Shown piece by piece: positions 4,363 to 48,025 of a stretch of DNA of 64,000 nt. The DNA comes from Cymbomonas tetramitiformis. Lineage: Eukaryota; Chlorophyta; Pyramimonadophyceae; Pyramimonadales; Pyramimonadaceae. Below the pieces are notes generated by a model. That model worked only from the letters and a program-made list of their open reading frames with translations. It made no database searches and was not told the DNA's origin. The stretch is taken from the NCBI GenBank assembly GCA_001247695.2, contig LGRX02033515.1, forward strand, positions 1 to 64,000. The letters are read 5' to 3'. The position numbers and the translations under genes are program-made. How positions within the stretch are numbered: position 1 is the first letter of the stretch; each line of letters opens with the position of its first letter.

Positions 4363-4364
4363 CC

Positions 4365-23856: not shown

Positions 23857-24070
23857 CCTAAACCAGTCTGAATTAAGCCCGCATCCTGTTGGTAGACAAG
23901 CTCTGCGCCAAAGAAGGACACGCTTCCTTAGTCCCACTTGCTGAGCATTGACGTAGCACTTGATCACGGAGAGTGAGGCGGAGCTGAGCGCTGCCACTGT
24001 CCAGTCCAGACAGCGTGAGGCACGGCGACTGGCACGGGAGACAAGCAGTCAGCAGCGTGACATTGGCTAT

Positions 24071-27000
24071 ATGAGCACAGAAGGGTCGGGTCCAGAATCC
24101 AGCCCCTCCACACCAACTTCATTAGCAGCAGTAAGGGCAGCAGCATCTGCAAGAGCAGCAACAGCAGCAGCCAATCAGTTCCTCTTTGCGTTTGACGACG
24201 TAGACGAGATGGATTATCATGACAGAGACAGTCACACACTTGACAAGATTGATGACAAGCTTAGTTACACTGGTGGCAAGAATGAGGACAGGGCGCTTTT
24301 CATCAGGCGCTTTGTTGAAATGGTGGCAAAAGTACAGCGGGCTCACGAGGCTAAGATACGCAGGCACACGAGGTCGGCGGCTTTTCTCTCGCTCAACGCA
24401 CTGGCAAAGAAGGCCTTCATGGAGTCCAAACCAGATTACAGATCGCTGTGGGATCTCTTGCCTTCACTCCTAGCAGGAGATGATCATGCCACCTCAGTCG
24501 CCTATGACTGGTGGTGCGCTGCATACATGAAGAATGGCCTTATGGCCTCCCATGCATGTCACGTCTTGAAGGACCTCACTACGAGGGACTCCTACCAGGG
24601 CTCAGTGCGCTGCGCACAACCTCCTTTCCATGAGCTGGCACCAGGGGCAACATGGGTAGTCTGCAAGAAGTTCGAGGATAGTGATGCTGAGGGTGAGCTG
24701 TCTAACGAGTGGGAGGAGGAAGCAACTTCCACCAAGGGCCTCACAGGGCCGGATGGCACGGAGGACTCTCACTATTTTTGGGCCTTGAGGGCGTTCATTG
24801 CAGAGCTCGAGGCCAAGTTCCTGCTGAAGGGCACCAAGGAGAAGGAGGACCTGTTGGTCGCCAAGTCGCAGACCGCCGAGCAGGATGGCCTTGCTTACGT
24901 GAAAAGCTGTCGACGCAGGGAAGCGGCGCTCAACGCTGGCAAGTCAGTGGGGGACTCCATCGTCAGACAGGACGTTGAGGAGTGCATCAAGGGTCTGCGC
25001 ATCAAGGAGTACCGAGATCGCGTATCGGAGCAGCTGCGAGTCAGCCATCCTGCACCCAGCAGGGTCACCTGGGAGGACCTGGAGGTCATCGTGGAGGTGC
25101 AGGATAAGTTGAAGAACGATGCAGAAGCATGGGCCCTGACGCTCCAGCAGGAACTCGTACGCAGACTGACTTGCGTGTATTCCTGCTACGAAGCCAGGAT
25201 GCTGGGGCTTGACCTCTCTGAGTTGGTGTCCTCCATGAGGCGTTCTGGCTCCTCCCACAAGACTGGGGACAGACGCAGGGACCCCAAGAAGAAGGAGCCA
25301 GCTCAGTCTGGTGGTGATGGTGCAAGGAGGCCTACAAGGGAGGCGAACAATGTGGAGAGGCAGAAGCCCACTTATGGCAAGGTGCCGCCACCTGACGCCT
25401 CGAAGCAGCAGTTCGAATGCGAGTACTGCTTCACGAAGTTGCCCCATTCGCCAGAGCGCTGCTATACTGGGTGTCGGGAGGCTAAGGTGCCCCACAACTT
25501 CCACAAGGATCGCCAGAACTCGAAGTGGCCAAATGAGGTCAAGAATGCTCAGATGCGCGCATACAACATCGCCCACCGCTTCGATCACCACAAGATGGGG
25601 ATCACCACGAAGGAGTGGCTCAAGTTGCCGGAGTCCAAGCAGAAGCCGCAGCAGCCGCAGCAGGTGGCAGCCAGCGCTGAGGTGAAGGAGAAGCTCGCCG
25701 CAGAATTGACAGGTCTACAGCCAGGAGTGCCGGCCAAGGGTGGCAAGGGCGTTGAGGCACAAGCTCAGTCAGAGGATGGCGATGACGTGCTCGAGTACGA
25801 CTCCAACTTCAACCAGCAGGCGGAGTACGAGGAGGACAATCATGACTGCCTCGTGGGGGAGGAACTGGAGGACAGTGACGGTGCTGGTGCCAGCCATGCG
25901 CCAGAGTTCCAGGCTAGGGCTGCAGTTGCTCTGGGAAGTACTCAGAAGATGCAGAGCTTCAAGGTCAAGACGCCTGAAGAGTTCGACAAAGCTGCTCAGG
26001 TACCCAGGGCCATCCCGCCGAACATCCTCAGCAGGAAGTTCCACCTGCTGGCGTCCAACCTCCGCAGCTCCATGCGAGCTTGCTCACAGATTGCAGCAAT
26101 CTTGATATCCCAGCACGCCATTGACATCCCGAAGGACATCGAGAACCTCCTGGCCCTGGAGGAGCTCATGAACAATGAGCAGAAGAACGCAGCTGAGCAG
26201 CCCACCGAGGTCAACGAACACGAGCTCGAGGACGTGCACGCTACGGTGGCGCAAGGGGTTGAAGTGGAAGCCGAGAGCGCAGGACGCCAGAGGGACGAAG
26301 AGTTGCCGCTGGATGAGATGCCCGACGGCGTTGTCGACAGTGTCACCGCCCGATGTGCAGCCGCTGCTTGTGTGAGTGATCTGGGGGTGGTCGACTTCAG
26401 TGACCATGGACATATCCGTGCCGGCACCATCAAGACCCGTGCCTACGACTCACTGAGAGAAAAGATGAAGCAGCACCTGACCGACGAGCAGGCACTGCTG
26501 ATGACACAGGTTCAGCCCATCTGCGAGTTGCAGAATGCCACTCTGTATGAGGGCCTGGCGCTGGTTTCATCTGGAGGCGAGCTCATGCTTTATCGGGCGA
26601 TCCTCATGGACACCGGCGCCAACTGTAACATCATCTCCATCGCGGTCGTGAGGCGACTGGGCCTTACGGTGTATGAGGCCAGCACCGGTGCCAAGGTCAC
26701 CAGATGTGACAACAGCCCCACGAAGTTCACGCATTACTGCCATGTGGACGTCATACTGGCTGCAGGCACACCGCACATGACACTCCACCGGCTTTACGCC
26801 TTCGTGACCTTCGAGCCCGAGAACTCTTGGGACCTGCTGATAGGTACTGGGCCGCTGAAGAACTCCTTGATGATTGACATCAAGCTTGGGAGTGGTGTGG
26901 CCGTGTCACATGCGCCGACGATTCTGGCCATGGATACTCAGGTGGTGCTTCCGTTGGTAGACATGACACCACCCAGACGTCCCGACCTGCCCAGAAGGGT

Positions 27001-27604
27001 GGATCCTACGGTGTGCTTGATGTCGGAGATCTTTGGGCAAGGATTGGAATGCGAATGGTTAAGGCACTCACCTCCGAGCGTGAGGGGGGAGAGGTTCGCT
27101 GCTTCTGGCCAGCGTTCCGAGCACATTGACGACGACGTGGAATCATCATTGGCGTCACCAGCGCCTTCAGCGAGAGAGCCTGGTGAACTCCCACGGCCTT
27201 GCGTCAGCACGCACGCAGAGCTGCAGGCGCAGAATCGCCTTTGGACAGCCCCGATGAGCATTCGCCGAAGGAGTGCCCTGGCGCCACTGGCAACTGCCGT
27301 GCAGACAGCATCAGAGGGCGTGCTCGCACAGTTTTATGATGAGCCGAGCCCTTGGAAGGGTGGGCGCGCAAGATGGTTCGCTGAGGACCAGGTCACTGAG
27401 ATTCGTCCGCCTCTCGACTACAACTGGGCGGATCAGAGACTGTGTCTGGACCGGAGCCGCATCGCGCGTCTCTGCCGCATCCTCCAGCGCCCAGCCCAGG
27501 ACATGCCGGCTCAACCTTCCCGAGATCATGTCTGCGTGGAGTTCACACGGTGTCGCGACTCGCGAGCAGCAGTGGGTGACAATAGACCAGCTGATGTTCC
27601 CTAA
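24071..27604 (+). CDS. giant retroelement gag-protease polyprotein (5' part)
   Basis: The frame is open from 23960; the first ATG is at 24071 (MSTEGSGPESS). The N-terminal half is gag-like and helical (LFIRRFVEMVAKVQRAHEAK, VEECIKGLRIKEYRDRV) but I do not recognise a known capsid family. A Cys/His cluster starts at 25418 (CEYCF, then RCYTGC, then HNFH) and could bind zinc or RNA in place of a standard knuckle. The protease active site is LMDTGANCNIIS at about 26603-26638, with WDLLIGTGPLKNSLMID matching the ILG-type end. The frame ends at 27604; coding potential continues in another frame from about 27500, so a frameshift (programmed or mutational) is needed. Confidence 0.75.
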   Translation: MSTEGSGPESSPSTPTSLAAVRAAASARAATAAANQFLFAFDDVDEMDYHDRDSHTLDKIDDKLSYTGGKNEDRALFIRRFVEMVAKVQRAHEAKIRRHTRSAAFLSLNALAKKAFMESKPDYRSLWDLLPSLLAGDDHATSVAYDWWCAAYMKNGLMASHACHVLKDLTTRDSYQGSVRCAQPPFHELAPGATWVVCKKFEDSDAEGELSNEWEEEATSTKGLTGPDGTEDSHYFWALRAFIAELEAKFLLKGTKEKEDLLVAKSQTAEQDGLAYVKSCRRREAALNAGKSVGDSIVRQDVEECIKGLRIKEYRDRVSEQLRVSHPAPSRVTWEDLEVIVEVQDKLKNDAEAWALTLQQELVRRLTCVYSCYEARMLGLDLSELVSSMRRSGSSHKTGDRRRDPKKKEPAQSGGDGARRPTREANNVERQKPTYGKVPPPDASKQQFECEYCFTKLPHSPERCYTGCREAKVPHNFHKDRQNSKWPNEVKNAQMRAYNIAHRFDHHKMGITTKEWLKLPESKQKPQQPQQVAASAEVKEKLAAELTGLQPGVPAKGGKGVEAQAQSEDGDDVLEYDSNFNQQAEYEEDNHDCLVGEELEDSDGAGASHAPEFQARAAVALGSTQKMQSFKVKTPEEFDKAAQVPRAIPPNILSRKFHLLASNLRSSMRACSQIAAILISQHAIDIPKDIENLLALEELMNNEQKNAAEQPTEVNEHELEDVHATVAQGVEVEAESAGRQRDEELPLDEMPDGVVDSVTARCAAAACVSDLGVVDFSDHGHIRAGTIKTRAYDSLREKMKQHLTDEQALLMTQVQPICELQNATLYEGLALVSSGGELMLYRAILMDTGANCNIISIAVVRRLGLTVYEASTGAKVTRCDNSPTKFTHYCHVDVILAAGTPHMTLHRLYAFVTFEPENSWDLLIGTGPLKNSLMIDIKLGSGVAVSHAPTILAMDTQVVLPLVDMTPPRRPDLPRRVDPTVCLMSEIFGQGLECEWLRHSPPSVRGERFAASGQRSEHIDDDVESSLASPAPSAREPGELPRPCVSTHAELQAQNRLWTAPMSIRRRSALAPLATAVQTASEGVLAQFYDEPSPWKGGRARWFAEDQVTEIRPPLDYNWADQRLCLDRSRIARLCRILQRPAQDMPAQPSRDHVCVEFTRCRDSRAAVGDNRPADVP

Positions 27605-29065
27605 CTGGCTGCACGTGGATCAGAAGCTGCACCATGACGAGGAAACGGACCGCTGGACACTCGGTGGCAGCTACATGACGCACGTACCGTCCTCTGCCAG
27701 CAAGCACCACGTCGTCATGCCCAGGCCGAGAGACATTTCAAGGCTCGACTTCACCCCGATCCAGAAGCTGCAGGACAAGGTCCAGGCATTGCTCAAGTAC
27801 CCCAGTGGTGAGGTCACTGGGACCCTCATGTGGGATCTGAAGGAGAACGCCTTCTGTGTCCAGCCGGACACAGCCACGCAGTACCTCGACTTGATGGGCT
27901 GTACGTTGGAGCACGCGTTCGTCGAGAATGGCGAGGAGTTGCTGCAAGAGCTCCAGCTCCCTCACTGGTACGAGAGCACTGGTGTCTGGCGGTACCAGTT
28001 GCTTAGATATCTATGCCCAGTGGACGTGGAGTCCCTCTCGAGAGGCATATCAAGGTATGTCTTACGCAAGGTCGACTTTACACAAAACTTCCGAAAATAT
28101 TTTTATTCGATAAACATGTCGCTCAAAGCAATCTAAACATATTGCGTACTCTGGGTATGCAATTGACCCAGGCATTGAAAAGTTATGGTCGATACCGCTC
28201 AGTTATCTCCCATACTTAACCATACATAAGCGGAAACTTAAATCGCTTATATCTCACGATCTAGAAAATCAGAAGTTTTGTGTAAAGTCGACCTCGCGTA
28301 AGACATACCTTGATATTCCAGCAGTATGCTCGACATGGCCAAGAAGGACCACCCTTGGAGCTCGTCTCGCTGGATTCCAACGCCAAGTACTACCCGGTGG
28401 AAGATGGTCTTGGTGGGCACGGTAGAGTGTTCTCCGAGAATGCAGCCGCCCTGGAGTACATACAATTGGGAGAGATGAGGAAGATGCTCAAGTCGGTCAA
28501 CACCGAGCAGCAGGGGTACGAGGCGATTGACGCAGGTGGTGAACGCAGGCCACCGCCACCCGGCAACATGGTTAAGACCAGGCTCACGAAGCGCGCCCTG
28601 ACGCAGCCACCTGCGCCTGCTGCTGGGGCGGGGCCGTCTCAGGCCGCCGCTGGGCCATCTCGGGCCGCCGCTGGGCCGTCGCAGGCCGCCACTGGGCCGT
28701 CTCGTGCCAGGTCCGCCAGCAGGCCTGCGCCGACGCGAGCGAGGTCGCCGCCGAGCAGAGGCTACTCAACGACGCCGTCGCCACCATCCCACGACAGTGG
28801 TCTTGCGGGCGATTCCCGTGCGTTGTCGCCTTCGCTCATTTGCGCCACAGCGGCTGGACCCTTGAGTCCTGCTGGCTCTCCTCGTGGAGGGTCGTCGCCT
28901 GCTCTGAGTAACATTGGCTCATGGGCGAACTCAATCCGTGTCCCACGTGGGTCTCGGCCACGTTCCCCGCGAGACGTATCCTCTGCACCTCCGGGTCCGC
29001 CGCGGGCGCAGCGCCTGTCTCCGTCCCCCGCGAGGACACCTCCGTCTCCATCGGGATCAGATTGA
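27500..29065 (+). pseudogene. giant element polyprotein continuation, split by a MITE
   Basis: The frame reads REQQWVTIDQLMFPNWLHV through MPRPRDISRLDFTPIQKLQD up to 28049, is cut by the MITE, and resumes at 28316 as FQQYARHGQEG. Removing the MITE and one TA rejoins the same frame exactly. A low-complexity Ala/Pro/Ser region follows (AAAGPSQAATGPSRA, SPPSHDSGLAGD), ending at TGA (29063-29065). The same frame is open again directly after this TGA. The function of this segment between protease and RT is unknown; no family is recognised. Confidence 0.6.
28050..28313. mobile_element. MITE with TA target-site duplication
   Basis: A 264-bp insertion with terminal inverted repeats of about 42 bp. 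The left end begins TCAAGGTATGTCTTACGC and the right end is its reverse complement with one mismatch (AAGG against GAGG within the arm). TA flanks both sides (28048-28049 and 28314-28315). It has no coding capacity. TA duplication points to mobilisation by a Tc1/mariner-type transposase. The host frame is restored by clean removal, so it inserted into an intact retroelement frame. Confidence 0.85.
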
Positions 29066-30118
29066 GATGCCGCACGGCGAGCCACACGCTTATCCGGCAC
29101 CTCAGTGCACACGTTTCTGTCCGTGGAGGAGGTGAGGGCCTTGAGGGATCTCCGCAACCTCACCGTCTTCATGGTGAAGTTTGGCGTGACGTTCATGGAT
29201 CGCTTTCGAGGCCGCCGTGTCGTGTATGAGCTTGGCGTGTGCAACCGTGAACGAGGTCTCCGGCTTCGGACGCATCCAGGTATCCCCGGCAAGGTCGAGA
29301 GGAAGCACAACAAGACCATACATTGTGGGAACCAAGGCTGGCGCCTCCCTCTTGGGGGACAGACGACGTCTTCCAACCTGCTGGAGGCGATCACGTCGGC
29401 CTATGCCGATCTGTCAAACTTTGGTTCGGGTTCGGAGCGTCCAGGAGGCCATGCGAGGAACATCGAGAGGTCGCTATGCTCCTACGTGGGGCTGGGGTCA
29501 ATCCACGTGCTTCGCTGCATGGAGCACCCGAATGCCAAGCCGGTCCATTACATTTTCATGGAGGATAAGCGGTGTTTGTCTTGGCGCGCTTATTTCACGA
29601 ACGATTACCTCATGCGGGACGACCGGAAGTTCACGCACTTGGAGTGGGGGACCAAGGTCACGGCCGCGCCGTGGGTGCTGCCGGCGCTGGAATCCCTTGA
29701 GGCACGTTGTCTCCCACCAGATGAGCCGCCCGCCCTTCAGGCTCGAGTCGCCGAGAGGCCTGAGCACGTGGACGAGGTGCGGACGAGGAATGTGTACGAG
29801 GTCCGAGACCCCCCTGCGTCTCAGCAGCGCCATCCTTCTGGCGATGCAGCTGAACGTCGACAGGGCGCGAGCAATGTTGCACGCGCATCTGCTCCTTCCG
29901 CTGGGCGCCATGGGACTTCATCCCATGTCGTTTCCGCGCCGAGAGCGTCCCGGATTCCGGCTGGCCTCACCTTGCGGTGCCCGCCTTCTCCAACACATTC
30001 AGTGTGCACAGAGGTGACGCAGGAGTTCGAGCACCACACAAATCAGCGGCGAGAGACGCAGAGGCAGCAGCCGCATTTTCAACAGGGCTCCCCGGGCGCA
30101 GCGGGCGGGCAGCCCTGA
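29066..30118 (+). CDS. unknown conserved-looking ORF between protease and RT
   Basis: In frame with the preceding ORF after a single TGA, the reading continues SVEEVRALRDLRNLTVFMVK, then TFMDRFRGRRVVYELGVCNR, MEHPNAKPVHYIFMEDKRCL and TNDYLMRDDRKFTHLEWG. It is rich in Arg and aromatic residues and looks like a globular domain of about 200 residues followed by a disordered tail to 30118. I do not recognise it. Either a separate ORF or a readthrough extension of the upstream polyprotein. It overlaps the start of the multi-membrane ORF in another frame. Confidence 0.5.
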   Translation, partial: DAARRATRLSGTSVHTFLSVEEVRALRDLRNLTVFMVKFGVTFMDRFRGRRVVYELGVCNRERGLRLRTHPGIPGKVERKHNKTIHCGNQGWRLPLGGQTTSSNLLEAITSAYADLSNFGSGSERPGGHARNIERSLCSYVGLGSIHVLRCMEHPNAKPVHYIFMEDKRCLSWRAYFTNDYLMRDDRKFTHLEWGTKVTAAPWVLPALESLEARCLPPDEPPALQARVAERPEHVDEVRTRNVYEVRDPPASQQRHPSGDAAERRQGASNVARASAPSAGRHGTSSHVVSAPRASRIPAGLTLRCPPSPTHSVCTEVTQEFEHHTNQRRETQRQQPHFQQGSPGAAGGQP

Positions 30119-33030
30119 CGCACGACCGACGTTGTGGCCGTGGGCTGCCAGCACGGGCAGTCCGCATGAGGCCAGGTGTGCTGCAGGCGTTCATCTCGCT
30201 TGCAAGCAGTGCAGTGGTTTGGTGGTGGCTGGGACGAGGTCCCATTCCTATGGTCGCCGTTTGGGCGGCATTTGAGACAATGGCGTGGCATCTGTCATGG
30301 TGCCCTTTTCGAATCTGGTGGGAGCGCTGCGTGGCTTCGCTTTCACACCGGCTGCCGTTGTGGTGGTCGATTGCTCGACGTTATCCTCGTCGTGCGGACT
30401 ATGGCATTTGGATCCTATGGGCCCTCGCGTGTGTCTGGTACGTTGGGCTCCTTATCGTACGCGCTGCAGGCATCTATGCTGGTGTACACCGCGTTCGTGC
30501 CGAAGGCTGGATGGTGGTGCCCCTCCGAGGGGTGGTCGTTTCCTTGGCATGCTGGTCACAGTGTGCCGCGGCACTCCTCCTTGTGGTCCTCGCCTGGCTT
30601 TGGGTCTGCGTCGATGTTTACGCTGGAGACCGAGCGCGCCAGGCTTCTCGTGTCGTGGACGTCCCTCTGGACACGCGTGACGTTCGAGGTGGCCAAGGGT
30701 GGACTGTTCCGTCCTTGCAGTGGTCCCAGGTCTTCTTACTGGGCCGCGTGCGCCTGCCCGCTTTGCCGGCCAGGTTGGACAAGCCTCGCTTTGCGTCGCG
30801 TTGGGCACAGCTTCGACGTAATCTCCGACTTCATCGTTTCGCGCAAGCCGCTTACCTCGTGGTTGTCCTTGCGCTGGTGATCTCCACTGCTGCTGGTGGG
30901 AGTTCTCGCTTGGCGCTCGGGGGGTGGAGATTAGTGGCGTGTTTCTTCGCCTCGAACTCGCCGGCAGCCGCAGTGCGGTTCAACAGAATTTTGCGATTTT
31001 TTCTGCTTTTGTGCGGAATCCTGTGGGTTGTTGGCGCATTGACGGAGAACATGCCTGCGCATGGCGTCACGTCACCCACACGGAGTGCCTGGAGTGCGTC
31101 ACCCTGCACTTCTTGGGAGGCTCAGCAATCATCGAGGCAATGGGAGCCGGGTTGGCAGGCCAATGTCGCGGAGCAGGATGAGGTCTTGCCGTATACCGTG
31201 CTGGACGAGCTTCAACCTCTGGGTGACACGACTGTGACCAAAGACGAGGCAGCGTGGCTCGACACTGAGCTCAATGCCACGTTTGGAGGGCATCCTGACT
31301 TCAAGGAGGAGCACTGGGAAGAAATGCGAGCTGTCCTTCGCAGATGCAAGGGCACTTTCGCCAACAGCCCTCACGACCTGACAGGCTACAAGGGCAAGGC
31401 GGAGCACAACACGTTCTCTATCCCTTTTGTGGACGAGTCCAAGGCTGCTTACCAGAGACCTAGGAAGTACAGCCCGGGCGAACAAGAGATCATTGACATC
31501 CACTGCAAGGAATTGCTGGAGTATGGCTTCATTGAGCCTGCAGCCAAGCATTGCAGACATGCGAGCAACGTCGTCGTGGCTGGTAAGAAGGATCATGAGA
31601 CTGGCCTGTGGACCCAGACGCGCTTCTGCGTGGACCTTAGGGGCGTCAATCGACACTCCCTCAAGGATAACACTCTGCCACATCGACCAGAGGAGCTCTA
31701 CCAGAAGGTGGCGAAGGCCAAGTTCAAGACCACGCTGGATGCCACCAAAGCCTTCCATCAGATTCCCATGGCTACGGAAGAGGACAGGAGCAAAACGGCA
31801 TTCTGGTGGAAGAACCAGTTGTACCAGTACACTTCGATGCCCTTTGGGGCTGCTGGAGCAACATCTGCGTTTGTGAGAATCATGGACTACGAGTTACGTC
31901 ACCTGCAGCACTGCACTGTGGCGTACGTTGATGACGTAGTGGTCTACACAGACTCCACGCCTGAGCAGCATCTGAAGGACGTCGAGGACGTGTTGCGCAC
32001 ATTGGGGGACGCTGGCATAAGACTGCACGCAGGCAAGAGCACCTTTGGTGCAGCTACGGTGGACTTTCTGGGTTACCGCATTGGGCATAACTCCATTGGC
32101 GCGCAGGAAGCGAAGTGCAAGGCCATCCAAGAGCTTCCGAGGCCGCAGGACAAGACGGGGCTTCGTTCCATCTTGGGCATGATGAATTACTATAAGGGCT
32201 TAGTGGGTGAGCCAGGAGGACCGAACTACTCTGAGATGGCTCGCCCTCTCAACGACCTGCTCAAGAAAGAGATTACCGATATCAAGGGAGCTTGGGGGAA
32301 GGATCAAGACCAAGCGCTCCAGGAGCTGAAGGACGCGCTCTGCTCTGGGAGATGTCTGAGGCCTATCGACTACGACAGACCCCTCATATTGTACACCGAT
32401 TGGAGCACCTATGGCATTGGCGCAGTGCTGGGCCAGAAGGATGACGATGGGAAGGAGTACATTTGCACGGCAATCAGTCGATCCCTGAGCAAGACAGAGA
32501 GGCAGTACGCCAGCTTCAAGGGTGAGATGCTCGCAGTGGTGTGGGCAGTGCGCACGTTGAGACAGTACCTGCATGGCGTACACTTCACGCTGGTGACTGA
32601 CCACTCACCGCTCACCACTTTGATGGAGAAGGCTGATCTTCAGGGTCAGCACCTGCGCTGGGCAATCAGCTTGCAGGAGTTCGACTTCACGGTGCAATAT
32701 CGCCCAGGAGCCAAGAACAGCAACGCTGACGTGCCGTCTCGCTACCCGTTACCGTCCACGACGGACGAGACTGGGGCAAGGCATGAGAGAGAAAAGGTGA
32801 CTGCGCTTCACGCAGGTGTGGGGGAAGTTCGCATGAAGGATTTCTGCGACCACCTGTGCTTCATGTTGGCTGGGGAGGTTTCCCCAGGGGAAGAGGCCAC
32901 GCCAGAGGTGCAGGTTGCCAACTACTGCAAGAGGGCTGCCGTGGAGCAGCTGGGCACGGGACCAGTGCATCGTTTATTCGATTTGCATCACCAGGAGGAA
33001 TTGGAGTGCAATCATGGGGTCATGCATGTT
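29977..33030 (+). CDS. multi-membrane segment fused to RT and RNase H
   Basis: Residues about 65 to 365 (30170-31070) contain several hydrophobic helices, for example AVVWWWLGR, WILWALACVWYVGLLIV, ALLLVVLAWLWVCV, YLVVVLALVIS and FFLLLCGILWVVGAL. The frame then enters a reverse transcriptase: FCVDLRGVNRHSLKDNTLP, TTLDATKAFHQIPM, SMPFGAAGATSAFV and the catalytic AYVDDVVVYTDS at 31921. RNase H follows with LYTDWSTYGIGAVLGQ and VTDHSPLTTLM, then QYRPGAKNSNADVPSR. RT and RNase H catalytic residues are intact. The frame shifts near 33000-33030. The membrane region in the same frame as RT is unusual. It may be translated alone, cleaved off, or be an env-like or anchoring module. Confidence 0.75.
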
Positions 33031-34450
33031 CGACACGGATCTACCCGAATTGGTGGCCGACTCTGGAAGGCTAGTGAGGGCGGCTTGGAAAGCGCTGAGC
33101 CTGGTGCGACCCACACGAGGCACGCATGGCGAAGGAAGCCCCGCTGTATACAGCAATGAGCACTTCGAAGGCGAACGCATCTTGAAGCCTGAGAAGGTGG
33201 ACACCAGGGTGTTGAGCAAGCGGTTCTTCTCGCAAGCTCGAGAGGAAGGCGTGGTGTGCTATGAGCCATGTGGAGGCCTTTGTGCTGGTCTGGAGATGTT
33301 GCTCCGCAGTGGCATGAAGGTGGATCGATACCTGTATCAAGACATATCACCGAGCAGTCAGACAGTGGCCAGAGCCAGGTGTACGGCGTTGCTGCGACGA
33401 TACCCTGACCTCATTTCGCCCAGTGCAGTAGAATTTGGGGCCCTACCCCAAGATCTGCGCGACATGACGAGCGCCGACTTCATACGGGCAGGAGCTCTTC
33501 GAGGACGTCAGTGGGTCATGGTGTGTGGGTTCCCATGCCAGGATCTCTCCCCTGCTGGAACGCTTACAGGCCTGGATGGCAGGCATAGCAAATTATTTTA
33601 TGAGGTGGTTCGGCTCCTGTCCACGCTGCAGCAGCTACAGCAGCAGAGGCCCCCAGGATACATCCTGGAGAACGTGTCCCCATTGTCGCACAGACCAGGG
33701 ACCAAGATCAGGGACGAAGTATTCCCGTACATTGCCAGCGTCATTGGCCGACCAGTGTCCTTTGACGCAGCACAAGCAGGCGCTTACGCACATCGATTGC
33801 GAGCGTATTGGAGCAACTTGTTCCAGATCCACCAGTTTCGCTCCGTGATGAGCAAGGTGGCGAGGCCACAAGGACGAGTCGTATCGTCAATCCTGTCCAA
33901 GGGCTGGCAGCCCAGGCCAGTGATAAGAACAGACCGCGCGCCTCACTACGTGGTGAACGTGGTGGGAGAACCGCTAAGGGCTCTTCCCACCATCATGGCG
34001 ACGCAAGGGTCAAGAGCATTCAGAAAAGCAAGGATGGGCACCGTGGTGCGCAACCAGGACGATGAGGACATCGAGGAAGAGTCCCGAGAGGTGAACCTCG
34101 ACGAGAAGGCGCGAGCCATGGGCTACAGCGCAAGTGAGCTACGCATGGCCGATGGCCTGAACGACGTAGAATCGGCAAGCATTCTGGGCCTGGCCATGGA
34201 TCGCAAGGCTATGGAACTGTTGATGGCGGTCGCAGAAGTAAGCAGGAAGGGGCTTCCTCACAACGAGGAGTCCTCGGAGGCGGAGAATTCCCCAGGACAG
34301 CCTATCGCTGTAGACAACAACTGGGCAGACCACGCGAGGTCGGACCTTCAGCAGAGGCAAGCTTTGCTGGCGGAATGGGTTGAGAATTCGAACGCATATA
34401 CTCAGCAGGTGGCGAAGACCATGAGTCACCGTGACTGGGAAGAGAAGCTG
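33030..34450 (+). CDS. C5-cytosine DNA methyltransferase domain (DNMT3-like pattern)
   Basis: Within the 32915-35653 frame, about 33258-33990 has cytosine-5 methyltransferase motifs in order. YEPCGGLCAGLEML is the S-adenosylmethionine loop. GFPCQDLSPAG at about 33526 holds the catalytic Cys of motif IV. GRHSKLFYEVVRLL follows, then ILENVSPL (motif VI ENV) at about 33662. AYAHRLRAYWSNLF resembles the HRARYFWGN segment of DNMT3-type enzymes. It would add methyl groups to cytosine C5 in DNA. It sits between RNase H and integrase, in one frame with the integrase, so it would be made as part of pol. A Lys-rich linker (KKKKKKEW near 34520) separates it from the integrase. Confidence 0.85.
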
Positions 34451-35653
34451 CAGATAATGTGCTCACAAGGGCAAAAAGGTGCAGAAGGAATTGGGGCCCA
34501 GCGACAGAAGGCTGGAACCAAGAAGAAGAAGAAGAAGGAGTGGCAGCTCTATGTCATCGAGCAGTATCGCCAGAGGCACGAGAGCCACTTCGTGAAGGAG
34601 GGCGCAACTCCAGCAGCGCGCGTTGACGTGCCTGCTTGGAGTCCGCCTGCCAAAGATGTGGAGATGAGACTCCCCAGGTTGGCGTGCACCACCAGGTTCG
34701 CGGACTTGATGGCCAGCGTGGCCGAGCAGCAGGTGGACCGTGACAAGCATCGAGATGTGCATGATGATGCATGGTGCCTCAGATGGTTGAAGTCCAATGG
34801 CAGCGTGAGGTTGCCAGAGGATGAAGTTCGTCGTGTGAGGAGACGCGCAGCACGACATCGATGGGATGAGGCGACGGACGAGATCTACATGATCACGCTG
34901 TCAGGCAAGGAAGTGAGAATACCCAAGCCTGCGGACCGTCTTGCACTGGTTAAGGAATACCATTCCAGAACTGGCCATTGGGGCATAAGACGCACGCAGC
35001 ATCTTCTGTGGCAGCGTCATTGGTGGGCCGACCTGAAGAAGGACGTTGAGGCTGTGGTCACTCAGTGTGAGACCTGTCAGCGCGTGAAAACTCACTATGC
35101 AAGAGAGGAGGCGTGTTTGTCCCCCCTCGAGATTGTGTCATTCATGTATCGTTGGTCGCTGGACCTGGCATGGCCTTCAAGGAGACAGACCAAGGCGGGC
35201 AACAACAGGGTGCTCATCATGACCGAGCACTACACCAGATTCATAGGCTGTGTGCCCATTCCCGACAAGGAGGCAAGGACCATCGCAGCGGCATTTCGCA
35301 GCCATGTCCTGGCTGTGTTCGGGGCGCCAGCAGAGTGCTTGGTGGATGGAGGCAAAGAGTTCGAGGGCGAGTTCAAGCAGTTATGCAGAGACTGTCTGAT
35401 AGACAGGCGAGTCACCTCGCCAGACTCACCAGAAGGCAATGGGCTCACCGAGCGGGTGGTGCGCACGATGAAGTTCTGCTTCAAGAAGATCGCCTTGGAG
35501 AAGGGCCTCGACTATGAGTGGGACGAGCAGCTCTGGCCACTCGTGCTGAGCTATAATGCAGCACGCCAAGAGTCCACAGGAGTGGCGCCACAGAGAGAAG
35601 AGCACCGTGCAGAGCATCGCGCCATGTCACCTACAGGTGAAGGACCAGTATGA
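34450..35653 (+). CDS. retroelement integrase (zinc-binding and DDE core)
   Basis: Integrase inserts the cDNA into the genome. The zinc-binding end is HSRTGHWGIRRTQHLLW with CETCQR (HHCC) near 34965-35080. The core has WSLDLAWPS (first Asp), ECLVDGGKEFEGEF (second Asp) and SPEGNGLTERVVRTM (Glu) between 35155 and 35470. The frame continues LWPLVLSYNAARQESTG, the standard integrase core tail, then degrades and stops at 35653. The PHD-finger ORF overlaps in another frame from about 35600, so a small indel lies there. The catalytic triad appears intact. Confidence 0.85.
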
Positions 35654-36150
35654 CTGCAGTGCAGCCGTTCCCAGCAAGCACCTAGCATGTGAAGTGTGCA
35701 GGAAGACTGATGGGGAAGCAGAAATGTTGTTGTGCGACGCATGCAACAGGGGGTACCACTTGTGGTGTCTTACCCCAGCACTGGATGGAGTACCAGAAGG
35801 CGAGTGGCTATGTCCCAGGTGCTCAGGCACGGGGATGCAAGCTGCTAACGCTGAGGTGCAGACCCAGGAAGATAAGAGCTCTGGTGTCCTGGAGGACAGA
35901 CTGGGCATAAAGGAGCAGCAGTTGAACGAGAAGCTGTCCTCAGAAATGCGCCTGCTGCCAGCAGACGTGGGTCCCCGTCGTGTGGTGAAGGGAGACAAAT
36001 TTCAGCCATGGCATGCCATCTCATCAAGGGAGATGCTATTGGAGGAGAAGGACATGTTCTTTGGCGTGCCAGATCAGATTGATTGGGGCAGGCAGGACAA
36101 GCTCTCTGAGGCCGTGCAGATCTTCATGCCAGGGCACTGGAACGAAGGAC

Positions 36151-36399
36151 TCACGGGGAAGCTGAAATCCCCCCCCAATGTATGGGGGTCCAGCTTCTCC
36201 TAGTATCACCCCTTGCTGCGTGTGTCACTGGTCGTGTGTCACCGTATGACACTCACCTGCTAGAAAGCTCACACCCGTAATCTTTCTATTAGTTTTGTTA
36301 TCGCCGGTTTCCCCATCACTGCCTTCCGAGTTCCTGTTGCAGTGAAATAGTTATATATATATTCACACAAATATATACCTATTTTCACCTGTTCTATCA
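36151..36399. repeat. LTR of nested element, left copy
   Basis: Starts TCACGGGGAAGCTGAAATCC and ends CACCTGTTCTATCA. Near the start it can fold into a long hairpin (arms GGGGAAGCTG-AATCCCCC and GGGGG-TCCAGCTTCTCC). It contains a TATATATATA tract (36351-36361) that could serve as a TATA box. Confidence 0.8.
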
Positions 36400-37742
36400 G
36401 GTTATGGGTCCCACTTCACGTGAGTGGTGATTCCGGTTGGTTCGGCTCGCTTCGGTTCGTCCGATTCTACAAACCGTCAACACCGTTTTTTTTACCGTCA
36501 ACATCGCAGCATAATTCAACTGCGAACCGTATCAGCGGCAATTTTTCCGTCTCCGTTCCCTTTGCCGCTTCCGTTAACCGTGGTTTACCCTACCGACTGT
36601 GACTGGGAATCCGCGCACCGTTTCCGTCAGCTGTTGACATCACAGCTATCGCGGCTTGATCCGCACCGTAAAAAGCGGCGAGTCCCTTTCCGTCTCCGTT
36701 CTTTTTGCCGCTTCCGTCTTTCGTGGCTTGCCAACCGACTGTGATTGGTATCCCGCGCACCGTCTCCGTCGGCTTTCGTGCATTTTGGTGCACTCCGTCA
36801 TTTTTTATAAGAATCCTTCTACACTCTGGCCAGCAGCGCCCCTGCTGCCGGGGGACCGCTTTACCGTACGACGTTTTTGACCTCACCGACGTTTTCCTCG
36901 TGAAAATTCACCCCAAATTGACTTTTTCATCTCTTGATTTAGTTGATTTTGCAAAAAGTTATCTTTTGCCACCCAAACCCAAACCTTATACCTCACAGAT
37001 TTTACAGCCGCAGCTGCATGGCTTCTTTGCGTCAGATTGCGCGCATGGCCGCGGTCAGATCTGCGCTTGAACTACTTCGACATCGACAATTTACTGCTGG
37101 CTACAGTCTGGTGGTGCTTGGTGGTGCTTATGCACCAAGCACCAACATCGACACCAACGTGTTCAACAACATCGACCACGAGAACTTTGACTTCAACACC
37201 CTCTCCCCTCCGCATTCTTCACTCTCACCTGGCGCACCCCTTTGTCGCCATCTGGTGGTGTCTGGTGGTGCTATCACGACCGCTTCCCCCCTCTCCGTCA
37301 TCCCTTTCGAGTTCCTCCCCATGGCCTCGATCACGTTCCCTCACCGCATTTTCCACCTTCCACCTCCCTATCCCCTCTTCAGCGACGCATTCGCTCTGGT
37401 GGTGCAGGCCGCTTTTGGCTTTGGCACCGCGTGGGCATTGGCTGATTCATCGTTTTCGTGGCGCTCGAGGACTTCTGCAATCGAGAACTCCGCCGCCGCC
37501 ATTCCGCAATCACGTCGCGGCTTGTAGATACTTGCCCTGATGTACAAGGACCGTAGAGCGGGACTAGCCCGCCTAGCCTGTTTATATGTCTCTTAGATGC
37601 CTAGGCAGCGCCCATGCACGGATGTGCTTCTAGCTGGGTTGGAAAAGGCCCCCTCGGCCTGGACACTAAATTGACATTGGGTTAGGGCTTAGGGTTTTCC
37701 TTGCTCTTGCATGGCCACTCACACCTTCGGGGTGAGGTGGTG

Positions 37743-37994
37743 TCACGGGGAAGCTGAAATCCCCCCCCCACTGTATGGGGGTCCAGCTTCTCCTAGTATC
37801 ACCCCTTGCTGCGTGTGTCACTGGTCGTGTGTCACCGTATGACACTCACCTGCTAGAAAGCTCACTCCCGTAATCCTTCTATCAGTTTTGTTATCACCGG
37901 TTTCCCCATCACTGCCTTCTGAGTTCCTGTTGCAGTGAAATAGTTATATATATATATTCACACAAATATATACCTATTTTCACCTGTTCTATCA
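37743..37994. repeat. LTR of nested element, right copy
   Basis: Same as the left copy with a few substitutions (for example TATCAGTTTT against TATTAGTTTT) and one extra TA in the TATATA tract. It is followed directly by the AGGAC duplication and the resumed methyltransferase frame. Confidence 0.8.
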
Positions 37995-38805
37995 AGGACA
38001 TCGCACGGTGCTGAGCAAGAAGTACCGAGAACAGAAGACAATGGCAAGGCAGCTGAGGGATGCACCTCGTGTGCCTGCTTTGTCTGAAGAAGAAGTTGAA
38101 AAGCGAGGAGAATTGAGACATATGACCAAGGCTCAGGTGCGAGAAGCTAGCGCGCTGCAGTGGGGGCTTGAGCTGGTCATCACAGTGCCCTCCGAGGTGA
38201 GGCGCTTGGCGACAGAGGTGGACTGGAAGTCCATCGATGGCGTGTGGGACCCGTGGGCAGGCACTGGGGTCATCAGTGAGGTGATGGTGGAGCAATGGCC
38301 GCAATTGAGGTTTATGAATAATGACTGGAATTCTCAGCTGGGTTGGTCTGAGGCGCATGACGCGCTCCAGCCAGGTAACTATCGCGCATGGAAGGAGAAG
38401 TATGGTATTTGTGATGCCGTGGTGACTTCGCCTTGGTTCGCAGCACTGGACATCGCGTTCCCTTTGGCAGTTATGGCCAGTCGTGTGGTGGCATGTGTCC
38501 ATGTTCCTTCTTACTATTTGACAGACATGACCGAGAGCAGAGCCGCGTACTTCAGACGATTGAGTCAGTCTGGAGGCTTGCATGTGATTGGACATCTGGA
38601 ACATGGACCTATTGGCCGCAGATGCATGTGGGTTTTGGTGTTCAAGAATCCTCTGGTCAGAGCCAGGATGTTACAGGGTGGAGAAGGTGAAGGCATTGGT
38701 ATGTTCACTTTCAGTTTGGGCAAGTTCATGGCAGATGGTGATACGACCCAGTATGCTGAACGACAAGCCCATATTTGAGTCTGTGCTACTGCACGCAGCA
38801 GCTAC

Positions 38806-38830
38806 AGATGGGGGATGTTGGAAATCTGGG
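38806..38830 (+). other. candidate polypurine tract and 3' LTR start of giant element
   Basis: Just after the last stop codon, AGATGGGGGA is followed by TGTTGGAAATC. A purine tract abutting TG is what reverse transcription of an LTR element would need. No matching 5' LTR was found upstream of 22.5 kb, so this is only positional evidence. Confidence 0.3.
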
Positions 38831-40650
38831 CTTGCATGAAGGAGCTTAGTGTTCGATCTCAGTATATCAGAATTTTAAAAAATTTGTAGCTCTACGATCT
38901 TGTACTATGTTAAGATTGCTTGGACAGTTACCGACACTAGTGAATGTTAATGACGAACTTATGGTTATCCGCGAGTGTTAAGATTGCTCGGTTCCGACAG
39001 TATTCGTACCATCATGTGCACACGTTTGCGACACTACAGTTCTTGGGTTGTTGCCCGTAATATTAGTCATGAATGTGCTGATTTCAACATGATCATTATA
39101 CCAAATACGGTGTTGTTCACTAGTATTTCGTGGCATTTCAGGGTGTTGCGGGTTACAATAACCCTAATCGCATGCAGTGACATTAGGGTGTTACATAGTA
39201 TCAGTAACACCTATTTATATCAAAATTGAGCAGTATGCATGTTTACTGGAAGGAAAGAAGCAAAACCGCATTCAGCATGTCACTGCTTATCATGTGATCC
39301 CTGTTACACCCCTAAGTTTTTGCACACGATTTTTAGGGTGTTACACGAGATGTGAAGTGCTCAGGTATTTTTCCCATATACCTTGATAGGTGAAAAATTG
39401 GAATCCGCGAAAAAATTGGACTGAAATTTTCATTTTGAAATCTAACGTGTGAGATTGTCACCTATATTTGTCACTTTTGGCTTATATATATATATATATG
39501 TAAGCCCCATTGTATATCATAATGTATACATCTGTCACAACTCTGTAATATATCTCACTCGCACCCATGAAATTGATATTGATATTTTTTCATGGTGTTC
39601 TGTGAAGATATGTGTATGGCCATCATTTGGGGTTTTACTGATTGAAACCCATGATAAATAGACCAAACCCTAATACTTATAACATATACATTAGACTACA
39701 CTACATTAGATTTATCAATAGTGACTTGCAGTCACTTAAGTGATAACTTGTCAGTTGATTTATTACTTACTTAGGACTGTCAATTCCTTAGATGACCTTA
39801 GCTAATAGCTTCAGGCGAGATCACTCCTCGGTTCGGTCGCCTGTCCTTGGCTGTTGATCACGTTGCCTACCCACGAATGGGTCTGCGGGAGGTCTTCTTT
39901 ATCTCTTCGGATCTATGACAATACTCTGGATGGCAATGCCATCCAGATACTAAGCAACTTGAGCAATTAATGCTCATAGTAATCAGGTAATTTATCATTT
40001 AGTTAGGCATATGGCGGTGCACTGGAAGAGTATCAAAATGATATCTCCAGTTTCTAAGTAAATCAGAACAATGCTTGAACAATTAGAGCAGTGTCTGTTT
40101 AAATACCTCTATCAGCTACATCAATGTCAAGATGAGTTCTGATCTGTGAGATTTATTGAGATATGCTTTGAAGTGATCAGGTTCCGAATCAACTGTCAAA
40201 ATGCATAGTAGATGATGGTGTTGCTCCAACGATAGAGTGAACGGGGCATGGACAATGTTCAACAGTGACCAGCTGTTTTGTGAACACTGTATACTGCCTT
40301 CGGGTCTGGAGATATTCTCCATCCAGCCCTTCAGCATGTGGATTGATCTTGTTCCCTTATCTATCGCCATCACTGACATCCAACACGCACATGTGTTTGT
40401 TGGATGGTATCCTTGCATCATACATTTGATGTTGATTTATACTTGATCATATACACTTACTGACTCAGTGTAATGTCGGCATACATAGTAATGTCAGTGA
40501 TTTATGCATTGTGCAGGTACTTACTGATTTAGTACACTTAAGCAAATTGATAGTGATTAATCGTACAAGTTAGTCTGTATACCACTGGACAGCATATAGC
40601 AAGTATGATGCATATCAATATAGTTATTATACTGTTGTAATCCTGCACTT
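38831..40650. other. non-coding flank
   Basis: No coding gene supported. It may include the 3' LTR of the giant element; TTAAGATTGCT followed by a TACCGACA/TTCCGACA box is duplicated at 38907 and 38978. There is a (TA)n tract near 39482. CAGTTCTTGGGTTGTTGCCC at 39037 resembles short sequences near 21.83 and 15.63 kb. Confidence 0.35.
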
Positions 40651-42681
40651 CTCATCATGATGGATGATGAGTTGAATGGTATATTTTCACAAATGGCTCC
40701 GGTGTGTATTCCATCTTGATCAACAGGAGAACAGTTATCCCATCCCAAATCCTCCGCCAGGGATAACTGAGCTAATTCCTGTCTTAATGACCGAGACTGG
40801 CACCTTATACCATTTGGATTTCAATATAGCCTATACTTGCAAGATCTAGCATGTATATGTGATATGCATGTTGCAGTGTGATATAGGTGTATTGCTGGAT
40901 AAACCCCCGGTTCCATGGGGTACAAGCCCATGGTCGGTTAGGCGCGGACAGGTCGCCATCGAATCGATCAACAGAACTACACGATGGTTTACAGATAAGC
41001 CCTTACTTTTTAATCCTCTGCAAATACATCTATGTTGCACTGTTGGTATATGCATGTGTATGCCAACCGTTATCGTGATCAGGCTGGTATGCATATGTGC
41101 ATGTATGCTAGATTTATATGACCAGGTTAATTATTATCACAGTGTAATTGGGTGAACAAGTTACAGTTTATGTAGCAAGTTGCAGTATGTGATAGTGAGT
41201 TGCAGTATGTGATAGTGATAAGTGGGATAAGTGTGATAAGTGGGATAGTGACAAAAGTTATCACACTATCAATCACAGCATGTTGTTATAATGATGACAA
41301 CATGGTATATACTTATGCACAACATGTGTATGTGATGATGATGGTATCACACACAATATTTCTGCAGCATGTATGTGTGTTGTTCATCTGCACAGCATCA
41401 TGCGTCCCTCTGCGCAGCATCATGCGTCCACATGCGAAGTATTGTGTGTCCATCTGGTGCAAAAATTGTATGAACATCAAAATCGCACATTATGTCTGCG
41501 CGTGATAAATATGTATGTCGCGCTGCATACCGATGCACCACAAATCATGCGTCCCCTGCACAAGCTAAAATCATCGCACGTGTGCGTAGCATTGAACAAT
41601 TCGTGCGGAATATTTGCGAACATCGCTGTCGCACATCTTTTTCGCACAGTATGAATGCGTATGTCGCTGTCGCTGATATGTGTTGCATAGTACGAATGCG
41701 AATGCGCTGTCGCCGGTATTTGTCGCATAGTATGATTGCGAATGCGCTGATAACGAAATTGTGCGCATCCCTGTCGCACTTGATGCGAATCATATATACT
41801 GACGATCATTTTTCGTTTGCGCGCTTGATTCTCGCATACCGTACCAACCCTGCGACATTTGACAGCATACATGTACGATTCATTGACTCGTGCGCACACC
41901 TTGTCGCAATTTATTCACTAATGGTATGTTGTTAGCTGCGAATATGATCGCGCTGATGATATTGTTGCACACTCCGCCGTTCGCTGACGATATTGCAGCG
42001 AATGTTGTCGTATGCGTGAAGATATTCGAAATATATGTATGTGCGAGCTCTGTCGCACCGTATACAGATCTATATACGAAATATATCAAGTCTGCTGCAC
42101 ACACTCGTGTCCTCGTTCTTCGCCTGAGCGGGGAGTACCACTGTCACGGTCCTATACGGACTTGATATGTGGCGCGGCTGCTATTGAACTGTAGCAAGCA
42201 CGCGCAAGTATATGGTGGGGTATGAGTGCAGCAAACTGGTAGACCAGAAGTGCTTGCTTGAGCCCAATGCTCCTCATATACTTCCAGTGCCCTCACGCGT
42301 CGCACGCGTTACCACCATCGGGTACGTTGTGAACCCGAGGGCACTGGGTGAACTACCCGCATCGGCTGGTCGATATAGCCATTGATGCTCGCATGCTGTT
42401 CATTTCATGCTTGAAGCGAAGACGCGTCTTCTCAGAACACTTCGGTTCTTCAAGACTTGTCCTGCTTCGCCATCTCGATGCCAATACCTGGCCTCTCGAT
42501 GACAGATGTCACTCACCTTAAGTGGATGACAGACATTATGACTGTACATGTCATAGTCGACCGTACTGACAATACTCGACGACTGTATGTCATTATGACA
42601 TATGACATATGACATGATATGACATAATATGACATGTATGACATGTATGACACATGTGTCATCGGTCATATCCCGCTGACA
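40651..42681. repeat. long dispersed repeat, copy 2, with LTR-like right end
   Basis: Colinear with 4822-6604 and in the same order. It contains an extra block of about 130 bp (40872-41005) not present in copy 1 and fewer CGTCCATCTGCGCAG units. Open frames within (for example 41492-41935) translate to Cys/Met/Tyr-rich repeats from TGCGAATGCG-type sequence and show no protein family. The LTR-like part is 42142-42681. Confidence 0.7.
42142..42681. repeat. LTR-like terminal unit, copy 3
   Basis: TGTCACGGTCCTATACGG to CCGCTGACA. It is nearly identical to the solo unit at 14895-15441. Internal sequence ending GAGCGGGGAGTACCAC precedes it and could be a polypurine tract, which fits a 3' LTR role. 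Confidence 0.65.
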
Positions 42682-42835
42682 ATCACTCAAAAAATATCTA
42701 TATATCACAGCCAATTATGTATATATGTGACAGCAGGCCTGTTGGCATGATGCTATTTGTAATAATTTGCGGTTTAAATTCAACCCTCTACGCGTGTTTG
42801 ACCTAATCAATCTCATGGTAGATTAGGTTACACAA

Positions 42836-43490
42836 GTAGCATTCCATGGATCCTCCCAATGGGTACCCTTTCACCGCATATCGCTTGGAGATGATTCGTA
42901 ACGATGTTGTGGACTACGGGACCAATTTATTGGACCTCGATCGAAGTCTGAGGTGCAGATTTGAGTTTTGAAGAGATGCCAAGGCCTAGCAGACATCGTG
43001 CTAGTACGCACACACAAGTAGCATGCCATGGATCCTCTCAATTGGCATCCTTGCACGGCATATCGCTTGGAGATGATTTGTAACGATGTTGTGGACTACG
43101 AGACCCACTTTTTGGACCTCGATCGATGTCCGAGATGCAGATTTGAGTTTTGAAGAGATGTCAAGGCCTAGCAGACAACGTACTAGTACGCATACACTAG
43201 TAGCATGCCACGGATCCTCCCAACGGGCACCCTTGCACGGCATATCGCTTGGAGATGATTTGTAACGATGGTGTGGACTACGAGACCCATTTTTTGGACC
43301 TCGATCGATGTCCGAGGTGCAGATTTGAGTTTTGAAGAGATGTCAAGGCCTAGCAGACAACGTACTAGTACGCATACACTAGTAGCATGCCACGGATCCT
43401 CCCAACGGGCACCCTTGCACGGCATATCGCTTGGAGATGATTTGTAACGATGTTGTGGACTACGAGACTCATTTTTGGACCTTAATCGAA
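42836..43490. repeat. 182-bp tandem repeat, about 3.6 units
   Basis: Units starting GTAGCATKCCAYGGATCCTC begin at 42836, 43018, 43200 and 43382, exactly 182 bp apart. The last two units are almost identical to each other, while the first is more diverged. No coding function; antisense frames are repeat artefacts. Satellite-like. Confidence 0.85.
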
Positions 43491-43516
43491 ACACCATGGC
43501 TATACACACACACGTG

Positions 43517-43651
43517 CATTACATAATATATATGTAATACATGTGTAATACACATGGATGTATTATTACAAGACAATAATATGATCCATGTCTTGTGGAT
43601 CATATTATTGAAATATGGGGGGGTTTCAATGATATTGAAAACCCCCCATAT
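43517..43651. repeat. cluster of AT-rich hairpins
   Basis: Two adjacent perfect or near-perfect inverted repeats: 43574-43610 (arms CAATAATATGATCCA and TGGATCATATTATTG) and 43614-43651 (arms TATGGGGGG and CCCCCCATA around TTTCAAT-ATTGAAA). An ATTACATAATATATATGTAAT palindrome lies just before. Possibly a small foldback element. Confidence 0.6.
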
Positions 43652-44135
43652 AATCCTTCAAGACTAGAGGCCATGCTGACCACACATACAAGGTCTTGCC
43701 AGACAAATTGCCTTGCAACGTAAACACCCATCCACTCATGCTTTGGTGAAATCCCTTCGGCACTACTAAATGCGTAGACAAATACCACACGGTAGCAACG
43801 CAATTCATGGCGGAGGAACTAGCTAGGTCCCCCGTTTGCCATTTGTATGGATCTTCATCAATGCGGCGTAGTAGTGGTGTTCAACAACAGAGTGGACTCC
43901 GGTGCATGAAGAATTGCACATACAATCATTGCGCAAAAGGTCTGCTCCGTGACACATGCGCTACAAAAGGGGGAGAATAATCCTGACTGAAGTACGTACT
44001 CGCTCCAAACTGCACATCACTAAAATGTTCGCACTTCACTCGTTCTCACACAATTAAACCATCCGCATAATCATGTTGTATATTGTTGATCCCATGGTAG
44101 TTAGCACAACGATCTTCGATCATAACCTTTCTAAA
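43652..44135. other. spacer, nothing recognised
   Basis: No convincing ORF, repeat or RNA gene. It is the 3' flank of the LRR-HlyIII gene. Confidence 0.4.
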
Positions 44136-47785: not shown

Positions 47786-48025
47786 TCAAAGCCAAAGCCT
47801 GTCCGTGCACAGTCGGTACGGTGGGTGAAATGCAAAGAATTGCGCCTGAAAGAACGGCTGCAGCGCAACGCACGCTGTATAGTCCGCTGCTTCCACTTGC
47901 GGTACATCCTTAATCATCGAGAGAAACATAAAAGGTATTGAGAGCACCATTACCAACATTGGCGCCATCCGCAGCAAAGCCGTTGGATCCAACTGCAACA
48001 GTCCACGCTTCCCCAGATCAGAAAC
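47786..48025 (-). CDS. possible exon of an unrecognised minus-strand gene
   Basis: After an acceptor-like TTCAG at 48026-48030 the frame reads VSDLGKRGLLQLDPTALL, then a hydrophobic helix (MAPMLVMVLSIPFMFLSMI) and KDVPQVEAADYTACVALQ. The splice acceptor and helix are suggestive only, and the donor is not fixed. Confidence 0.25.
   Translation of the reverse strand, partial: VSDLGKRGLLQLDPTALLRMAPMLVMVLSIPFMFLSMIKDVPQVEAADYTACVALQPFFQAQFFAFHPPYRLCTDRLWL

Follow-up and report, generated by a model that had tools for sequence, protein, structure and literature searches.

A Ty3-like retroelement combining a DNMT3-type methyltransferase, a PHD finger and an amino-methyltransferase-like domain

Why would a genomic parasite carry an enzyme that silences it? 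This known puzzle is raised by the first 64,000 nucleotides (hereafter, the window) of contig LGRX02033515.1 from the Cymbomonas tetramitiformis assembly. Here we describe in it a Ty3-like retrotransposon, most likely from a green alga, with the domain order reverse transcriptase (RT), RNase H, DNMT3-type C5 cytosine methyltransferase (DNMT), integrase (INT), PHD finger and amino-methyltransferase-like domain (MT). The original prediction, made from the letters of the window, that one retroelement unites the C5 methyltransferase, the PHD finger and the amino-methyltransferase-like domain was confirmed by domain searches, by a structure model for the last domain and by 60 of 184 fetched relatives (P-numbers denote these proteins, L-numbers DNA loci). 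We propose, with a probability of about 0.45, that the PHD finger aims the integrase at histone H3 unmethylated at lysine 4 (H3K4me0) and that the methyltransferases mark the new copy. The best protein matches to the window element were from C. tetramitiformis (94% and 88% identity over the aligned parts), the species named in 24 of the 54 matches of one protein search.

What does the element encode? All six domains lie on the plus strand, in stop-to-stop open reading frames (ORFs). RT (RVT_1, 31654 to 32082, Pfam E-value 1e-22) and RNase H (RT_RNaseH, 32368 to 32682, 2.9e-33) share the ORF 29854-33159. The ORF 32837-35653 holds the C5 methyltransferase (33167 to 34255; Pfam DNA_methylase, 5.3e-10; catalytic Cys codon at 33536-33538) and the integrase (34673 to 35590), the latter with an H2C2 match at 34928-35092 (1.8e-16) and an rve core at 35150-35431 (3.4e-6, under its cut-off). 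RT, RNase H and the DDE integrase thus keep the RT-RH-IN order, with DNMT placed, as had been claimed, between RNase H and integrase. The C4HC3 PHD finger expected after the integrase was found at 35688 to 35822 (Pfam, 4.9e-13) in the ORF 35550-36203. The gamma-type amino-methyltransferase-like domain, or GTG/SPWF domain, spans 37999 to 38775 in the ORF 37939-38778, the stop codon of which ends at 38778; motif I is DPWAGTG (38248-38268) and motif IV is SPWF (38428-38439).

The nearest solved structure to the C5 methyltransferase by sequence was DNMT3A (E-value 1e-6), and the features of the DNMT3 family were all found: motifs IV (PC), VI (EN) and VIII (HR.R) and the DNMT3 fold. Among 138 DNMT domains of the family, the catalytic Cys was kept in 137 of 137 aligned, while the catalytic Glu and Arg were kept in all 138.

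The C4HC3 pattern fits 122 of the 128 PHD fingers in the family. None of the 122 has the Trp of the cage for trimethylated lysine 4 (H3K4me3), at the position that we take from BPTF-type fingers; the residues there are Gly (110), Ala (nine), and Phe, Pro and Leu (one each). The best-scoring solved PHD fingers were those of CHD4, WSTF, MLL3, Lid/KDM5 and ATXR5, with BAZ2 and PHF21A lower. By its zinc ligands and the missing cage Trp the finger is predicted to be of the H3K4me0 type and to read histones. After the PHD finger, P0123 (Monoraphidium) has a PTM/DIR17-like Tudor match (E-value 3.8e-5; 23.8 bits, cut-off 27.2). An iterated profile found a Tudor-like stretch in 97 of 122 members that extend by over 60 residues beyond the PHD finger, and in none of the 10 Cymbomonas-named members. 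Since two other Ty3-like ORFs in the window carry a chromodomain, the PHD finger occupies what is elsewhere the chromodomain slot; with Pfam, no chromodomain was found after the focal integrase, the PHD finger standing there instead.

Is the last domain a methyltransferase? The window MT had no match in Pfam or NCBIfam, and its best PHROGs score, 0.15, was at chance level. The AlphaFold model, made with a 15-sequence alignment, has a methyltransferase fold. For the window copy, profile searches recovered the expected methyltransferase domain for DNMT and not for MT, for which the fold comes from the model. The model resembles M.TaqI, with motif I preceding motif IV on a class I Rossmann fold. 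In a structure comparison with VIA-align re-ranking, the nine best rows belonged to M.TaqI and to a subunit of a type I restriction methyltransferase; METTL5 and KsgA followed closely (Z differences to METTL5 below 1). The N6-adenine reading of MT rests on this re-ranking of Foldseek rows, Foldseek's own top rows being mostly generic class I methyltransferases. Motif IV, SPWF in the window, is SPWF, SPPF, SPFF, SPMF or a decayed form across the family, the standard of gamma-type N6-adenine methyltransferases being (N/D/S)PP(Y/F/W). By patterns of our own, both MT motifs are kept in 23 of 52 copies.

Pfam D12 DNA methylase, the family matched by most members, matched 5 of 15 MT members (best E-value 2.5e-4), and the MT of P0059 scored 17.5 bits with a curated profile that has a cut-off of 22. 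The MT profile gave nothing meaningful against solved structures; one member alone led to 3tma (E-value 0.0052). The focal MT had no match to PF05869 (Dam). For a possible viral or phage origin of MT, no relative was confirmed in viral contigs, either with MT or with the polyprotein alignment A2, and tblastn of MT against phages returned three records (best E-value 8). The alignments comprised 14 fetched fragments and the window (A1), 14 proteins (A2), and nine fragments and the window (A3); the decayed A1 rows P0028 and P0025 were excluded from the starting MT profile.

Does the architecture recur? RT, DNMT, INT, PHD and MT were all present at E-value < 1e-3 in 60 of the 184 fetched proteins, a set that is not random, the proteins having been retrieved by queries with the family's own domains. 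The order was the same in 60 of 60; MT scores were below 50 bits in 10 of these proteins and above 100 bits in 42. All but MT were present in 49 of the 184, and DNMT, integrase and PHD occurred together in 130. With strict scores, 39 proteins retain all five domains. When the DNMT of P0065 was the query, 99 proteins among the 120 of 157 matches listed had RT, DNMT, INT and PHD, with MT in addition in 54 of those 99. A query with the last domain of P0003 led to 16 proteins, 11 of which also had a DNMT match, some fragmentary. By blastp per domain, DNMT, integrase, PHD and MT follow one another in P0003 (Cymbomonas) as they do in the window, and likewise in the metagenome proteins P0025, P0028 and P0029 (26-54% identity per domain). 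All five domains are carried by 3 of 30 Cymbomonas-named proteins (P0055, P0056 and P0060), and many others are partial. RT and DNMT stand in one protein in P0055 and others, and the architecture is also seen in single proteins such as P0059, P0065, P0069 and P0070, the last being 2924 aa long and encoded on a contig of 11,253 bases.

The green-algal members are from Monoraphidium neglectum (P0123), Scenedesmus sp. PABB004 (P0134) and Haematococcus lacustris (P0152, P0154 and P0179), along with the EukProt entry P0099, labelled Chrzof1, which we read as Chromochloris zofingiensis. Among these six, a last-domain match is confined to P0123 and is weak (32 bits); in P0179 the PHD match lies near the N-terminus. 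The transcript-style names of P0112 and P0120, with ‘ORF type:complete’, suggest transcription if the names are so read. No match named Klebsormidium was present among the named matches listed (54; 16; 120 of 157), many matches carrying no name. The architecture recurs in a single lineage, several green algae among its hosts, and the DNMT catalytic residues are retained in it.

Were the domains inherited together? For 39 proteins, the distances of DNMT, INT, PHD and MT all correlated with RT distances more strongly than in 500 shuffles, PHD barely so (0.375 versus 0.365). A search of genome contigs gave six related loci, L001 to L006, which, except for L002, were placed in a tree with 30 chosen family proteins and outgroups. 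L004, branching at the base of this tree with support of 94, has DNMT (2238-3200) ahead of RT (3549-6626) in the same frame, with one stop codon between them; it has a PHD finger and no MT match. L005 and L006 had no DNMT or PHD matches. Among the fetched DNA loci, DNMT was found in L004 only, and the close pair, L001 versus L002/L003, is without it.

Some observations on the relatives stand apart. L001 to L006 and P0160 are Ty3-like retroelements in contigs that are labelled bacterial (Mollicutes, Halanaerobiaceae, a cyanobacterium, Aquifex and others); these eukaryotic-type retroelements are likely contamination. Two retroelement polyproteins, P0003 and P0018, are public entries under the name ‘Methyl-CpG-binding domain-containing protein 9’, which may stem from the PHD finger. 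A G-patch domain (PF01585) is present in P0029, P0039, P0091, P0095, P0113 and P0171, and in 3 of 14 relatives in one scan.

How far does the window copy extend? The predicted extent, 33030 to 38778, was too small: related proteins match from 25199, and a gag/aspartic-protease ORF (1215 aa, DTGAN motif) runs from 23957 to 27601 on the plus strand. Its Pfam matches, Asp_protease_2 (0.022) and gag-asp_proteas (0.041), are both under cut-off; Cymbomonas P0067 aligns to 25199-27583 at 70.5%. A palindromic MITE-like insert with 51-nt arms is nested in the element at 28044 to 28319, where the alignments of P0067 and P0061 break off at 28055/28067 and restart at 28313. Related proteins tie the stretch 28313-31821, together with the gag/protease region, to the focal element. 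Conserved hydrophobic, membrane-like segments, four by hydropathy scan, lie ahead of RT at 30271 to 31180 on the plus strand; P0055 and P0060 align from 30271 onward at 82%, and four such peaks each are seen in the window, P0055, P0060 and P0035, and three in P0030. The leader ahead of gag contains repeated motifs (GTGAATCCAGGGG...CACTGGCCTAA) at 22645-23880.

The ORF of the PHD finger and MT is split by a nested long terminal repeat (LTR) element of 1,844 bp at 36151 to 37994, which by its size is non-autonomous. Its LTRs (36151-36399 and 37743-37994; 249 and 252 nt) are ~96% identical, and it is flanked by the 5-bp repeat AGGAC (36146-36150 and 37995-37999). The insert and one 5-bp repeat make 1,849 nt, with a remainder of 1, which accounts for the PHD finger and the GTG/SPWF domain being in two frames. 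The statement that the two share one frame holds if the nested element is disregarded, and fails for the DNA as it stands. In Cymbomonas P0055 they are continuous, with residues 1848-2033 corresponding to 35592-36149 and residues 2023-2291 to 37963-38775.

How could such an element work? Once reverse transcription is complete, the polyprotein, either whole or in processed parts, would keep the DNMT3-type enzyme near the new DNA. DNMT would then methylate the newly made cDNA or the site of insertion, at CpG by analogy to DNMT3; the copy would carry the mark of the host from its entry into the genome, and hence be tolerated. The PHD finger, mostly with the Tudor-like stretch, would tether the preintegration complex to H3K4me0, i.e., non-promoter chromatin. 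With the integrase held at H3 tails without K4 methylation, the copy would be inserted there and methylated at once. We are least sure of the last step, in which the amino-methyltransferase would add N6-methyladenine or N4-methylcytosine where its motifs are kept, including the Cymbomonas family, and would be decayed elsewhere. Host DNMT3 couples a methyltransferase with an ADD domain, a logic that the element would share by pairing a DNMT3-like writer with a reader of the H3K4me0 type. The idea of methylation of the element itself or its insertion sites, guided by histone state, is supported in part, self-marking being what we infer. Such a writer and reader kept in one polyprotein through deep divergence make that idea testable. 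We find rather doubtful the broader claim of an old, widespread green-algal lineage with a PHD(-Tudor) integrase reader, a 5-methylcytosine writer and a second-mark writer, whose copies would arrive disguised or seed the host chromatin code. Transposon-borne enzymes could have shaped green-algal methylomes.

Several observations weigh against the proposed PHD targeting and self-marking. The window copy is dead as it stands, because of its frame breaks, a loss of ~126 residues, the nested LTR element and the palindromic insert. The alignments of P0030 and P0035 switch frame between 33024 and 33026, that of P0067 does so further upstream, near 27570, and the lost residues, from the C-terminal part of the integrase in P0055 and P0056, are absent at 35590/35592. 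Longer proteins without these breaks are present in databases (P0055, 2291 aa; P0070, 2924 aa). The focal element showed no LTRs of its own: comparison of 19000-24500 with 38600-48000 gave a 21-nt match only, and within 22000-46000 no other repeat pair of at least 40 nt spans the element. The window copy may be truncated, and we use the name ‘Ty3-like’ because no flanking LTRs were found for this one copy. The CpG observed/expected ratio is 0.76 in the focal element, 0.88 in the window and very low, 0.37, in the leader (22600-23956). Depletion in the focal element is modest and not specific; it lends no support to self-methylation because a Ty3 element with no methyltransferase found in its two scanned ORFs has a lower ratio (0.59).

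The domains themselves add to this list. Immediately ahead of the catalytic Cys, 61 of 137 DNMT domains have Glu and only 65 have Pro; we know of no active C5 methyltransferase with the Pro-to-Glu change, which, common as it is here, makes a natural experiment on C5-methyltransferase chemistry. PHD distances correlate weakly with those of DNMT (0.14) and INT (0.25). MT is the fastest-evolving of the five domains (median distance 0.69) and is without an obvious DNA-recognition domain. In an RT+INT tree of 93 of the 184 proteins and the window, for which the MT state was set to intact by hand, MT was intact, decayed or undetected (no MT match above 50 bits) in 16, 32 and 46 of 94; the states were mixed, with 20 changes, and MT is therefore dispensable. 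L001 to L003, two relatives (L002 and L003 are 99.4% identical), have the PHD finger without DNMT or MT. As L001 and L003 branch within the family in the locus tree, with modest support, loss of DNMT and MT is likely in both. The Klebsormidium nitens element KnitGypsy-Dnmt3 produced no methylation in a yeast assay, a result inconclusive according to its authors (PMC5890265, available part).

Other readings of the same domains have to be weighed. The amino-methyltransferase could act on RNA or protein, as METTL5, KsgA and PrmC do, for example on the element RNA or gag. We consider this possible and rather unlikely, as M.TaqI and the restriction subunit hold the nine best rows, if by small Z differences, and D12 is the Pfam family that most members match. 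Less likely still, the extra methyltransferase domains would be largely non-catalytic scaffolds for S-adenosylmethionine, nucleic acid or chromatin, kept for folding or targeting. One or both motif patterns are missed by 29 of 52 MT domains, and 72 of 137 DNMT domains have another residue in place of the Pro that precedes the catalytic Cys (PC to EC, DC, SC or AC). However, the near-invariant Cys, Glu and Arg of DNMT are hard to explain without catalysis, and Cymbomonas P0003, P0055 and P0056 retain both MT motifs.

Although retrotransposon methylases have been proposed to serve in defence (PMC6338049, available part), we judge it improbable that the methylases are counter-silencing or antiviral tools, placing marks in trans against DNA viruses or host silencing. 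The frame breaks and nested inserts of the window copy could suggest that assembly or annotation had fused unrelated pieces of retroelements and genes; an assembly chimera was a danger the original prediction had itself named. This was not borne out, and we reject it as next to impossible, because the same domain order recurs in single predicted proteins from unrelated contigs (P0070, P0059, P0065 and P0069).

The window holds other elements. At 61078-62931 (minus strand), a second element has an integrase SH3 domain, a chromodomain and a C5 methyltransferase (SPPC motif, Pfam 5.7e-6), which has no significant blastp similarity to the focal DNMT (E-value 4.7) and, judged by sequence, is likely a separate acquisition. 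At 1695-4546 (plus strand), RT is followed by a Dam N6-adenine methyltransferase (PF05869, 3.3e-10), an arrangement that we take to be DIRS-like. With the focal element, this makes three kinds of methylase-bearing retroelement-like sequences within 64 kb. A haemolysin-III-related gene with a hint of leucine-rich repeats, at 44139-46061 (minus strand), is probably a host gene.

How does the element compare with known systems? Retrotransposon DNMTs are already known; the combination with a PHD finger and a second methyltransferase is without record in the open-access literature searched. In the available parts of that literature, including PMC5890265, PMC6338049, PMC12344493, PMC9998398, PMC5741210 and PMC12633428, a retroelement with DNMT and a PHD finger is undescribed, and no description of one with DNMT and a second methyltransferase was found. 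The Cymbomonas genome paper reports scaffolds of extremely high coverage that are homologous to chromodomain, RNase H and cytosine methyltransferase, and its available text describes no element around them (PMC5741210). A 2025 survey places DNMT3 in Copia and DIRS elements (PMC12344493, available part).

Retrotransposon DNMTs, including that of the Klebsormidium Gypsy element, were reported by de Mendoza et al. in 2018, and those of DIRS elements were active in yeast (PMC5890265, available part). KnitGypsy-Dnmt3 has the same Dnmt3-type domain in a Gypsy Pol polyprotein, with conserved catalytic residues. Compared by its main-text description, in which the word PHD is absent, it is ascribed no amino-methyltransferase, and a legend calls its domain composition typical of Gypsy (PMC5890265). 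Its host is a charophyte, whereas the named hosts of the focal family are chlorophyte and prasinophyte green algae. SymbioDIRS-Dnmt3, with DNMT in the Pol ORF and active in yeast, and SymbioLINE-Dnmt also bear a DNMT; these are a tyrosine-recombinase DIRS and a LINE, with PHD unmentioned in the available text (PMC5890265), while the focal element is Ty3-like. DIRS elements with a Dam-like N6-adenine methyltransferase likewise carry a retroelement amino-methyltransferase (as cited in PMC5890265, available part). They have PF05869 and a tyrosine recombinase, while the focal element has a DDE integrase and no PF05869 match. Host DNMT3A/B have an ADD domain; in the focal element, the PHD finger is separate, with the integrase between it and DNMT. 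Chromoviruses are Ty3 elements with a chromodomain after the integrase. The focal family likewise has a chromatin-reading domain C-terminal to the integrase, which is a PHD finger, mostly with a Tudor-like stretch, and to which enzymes have been added.

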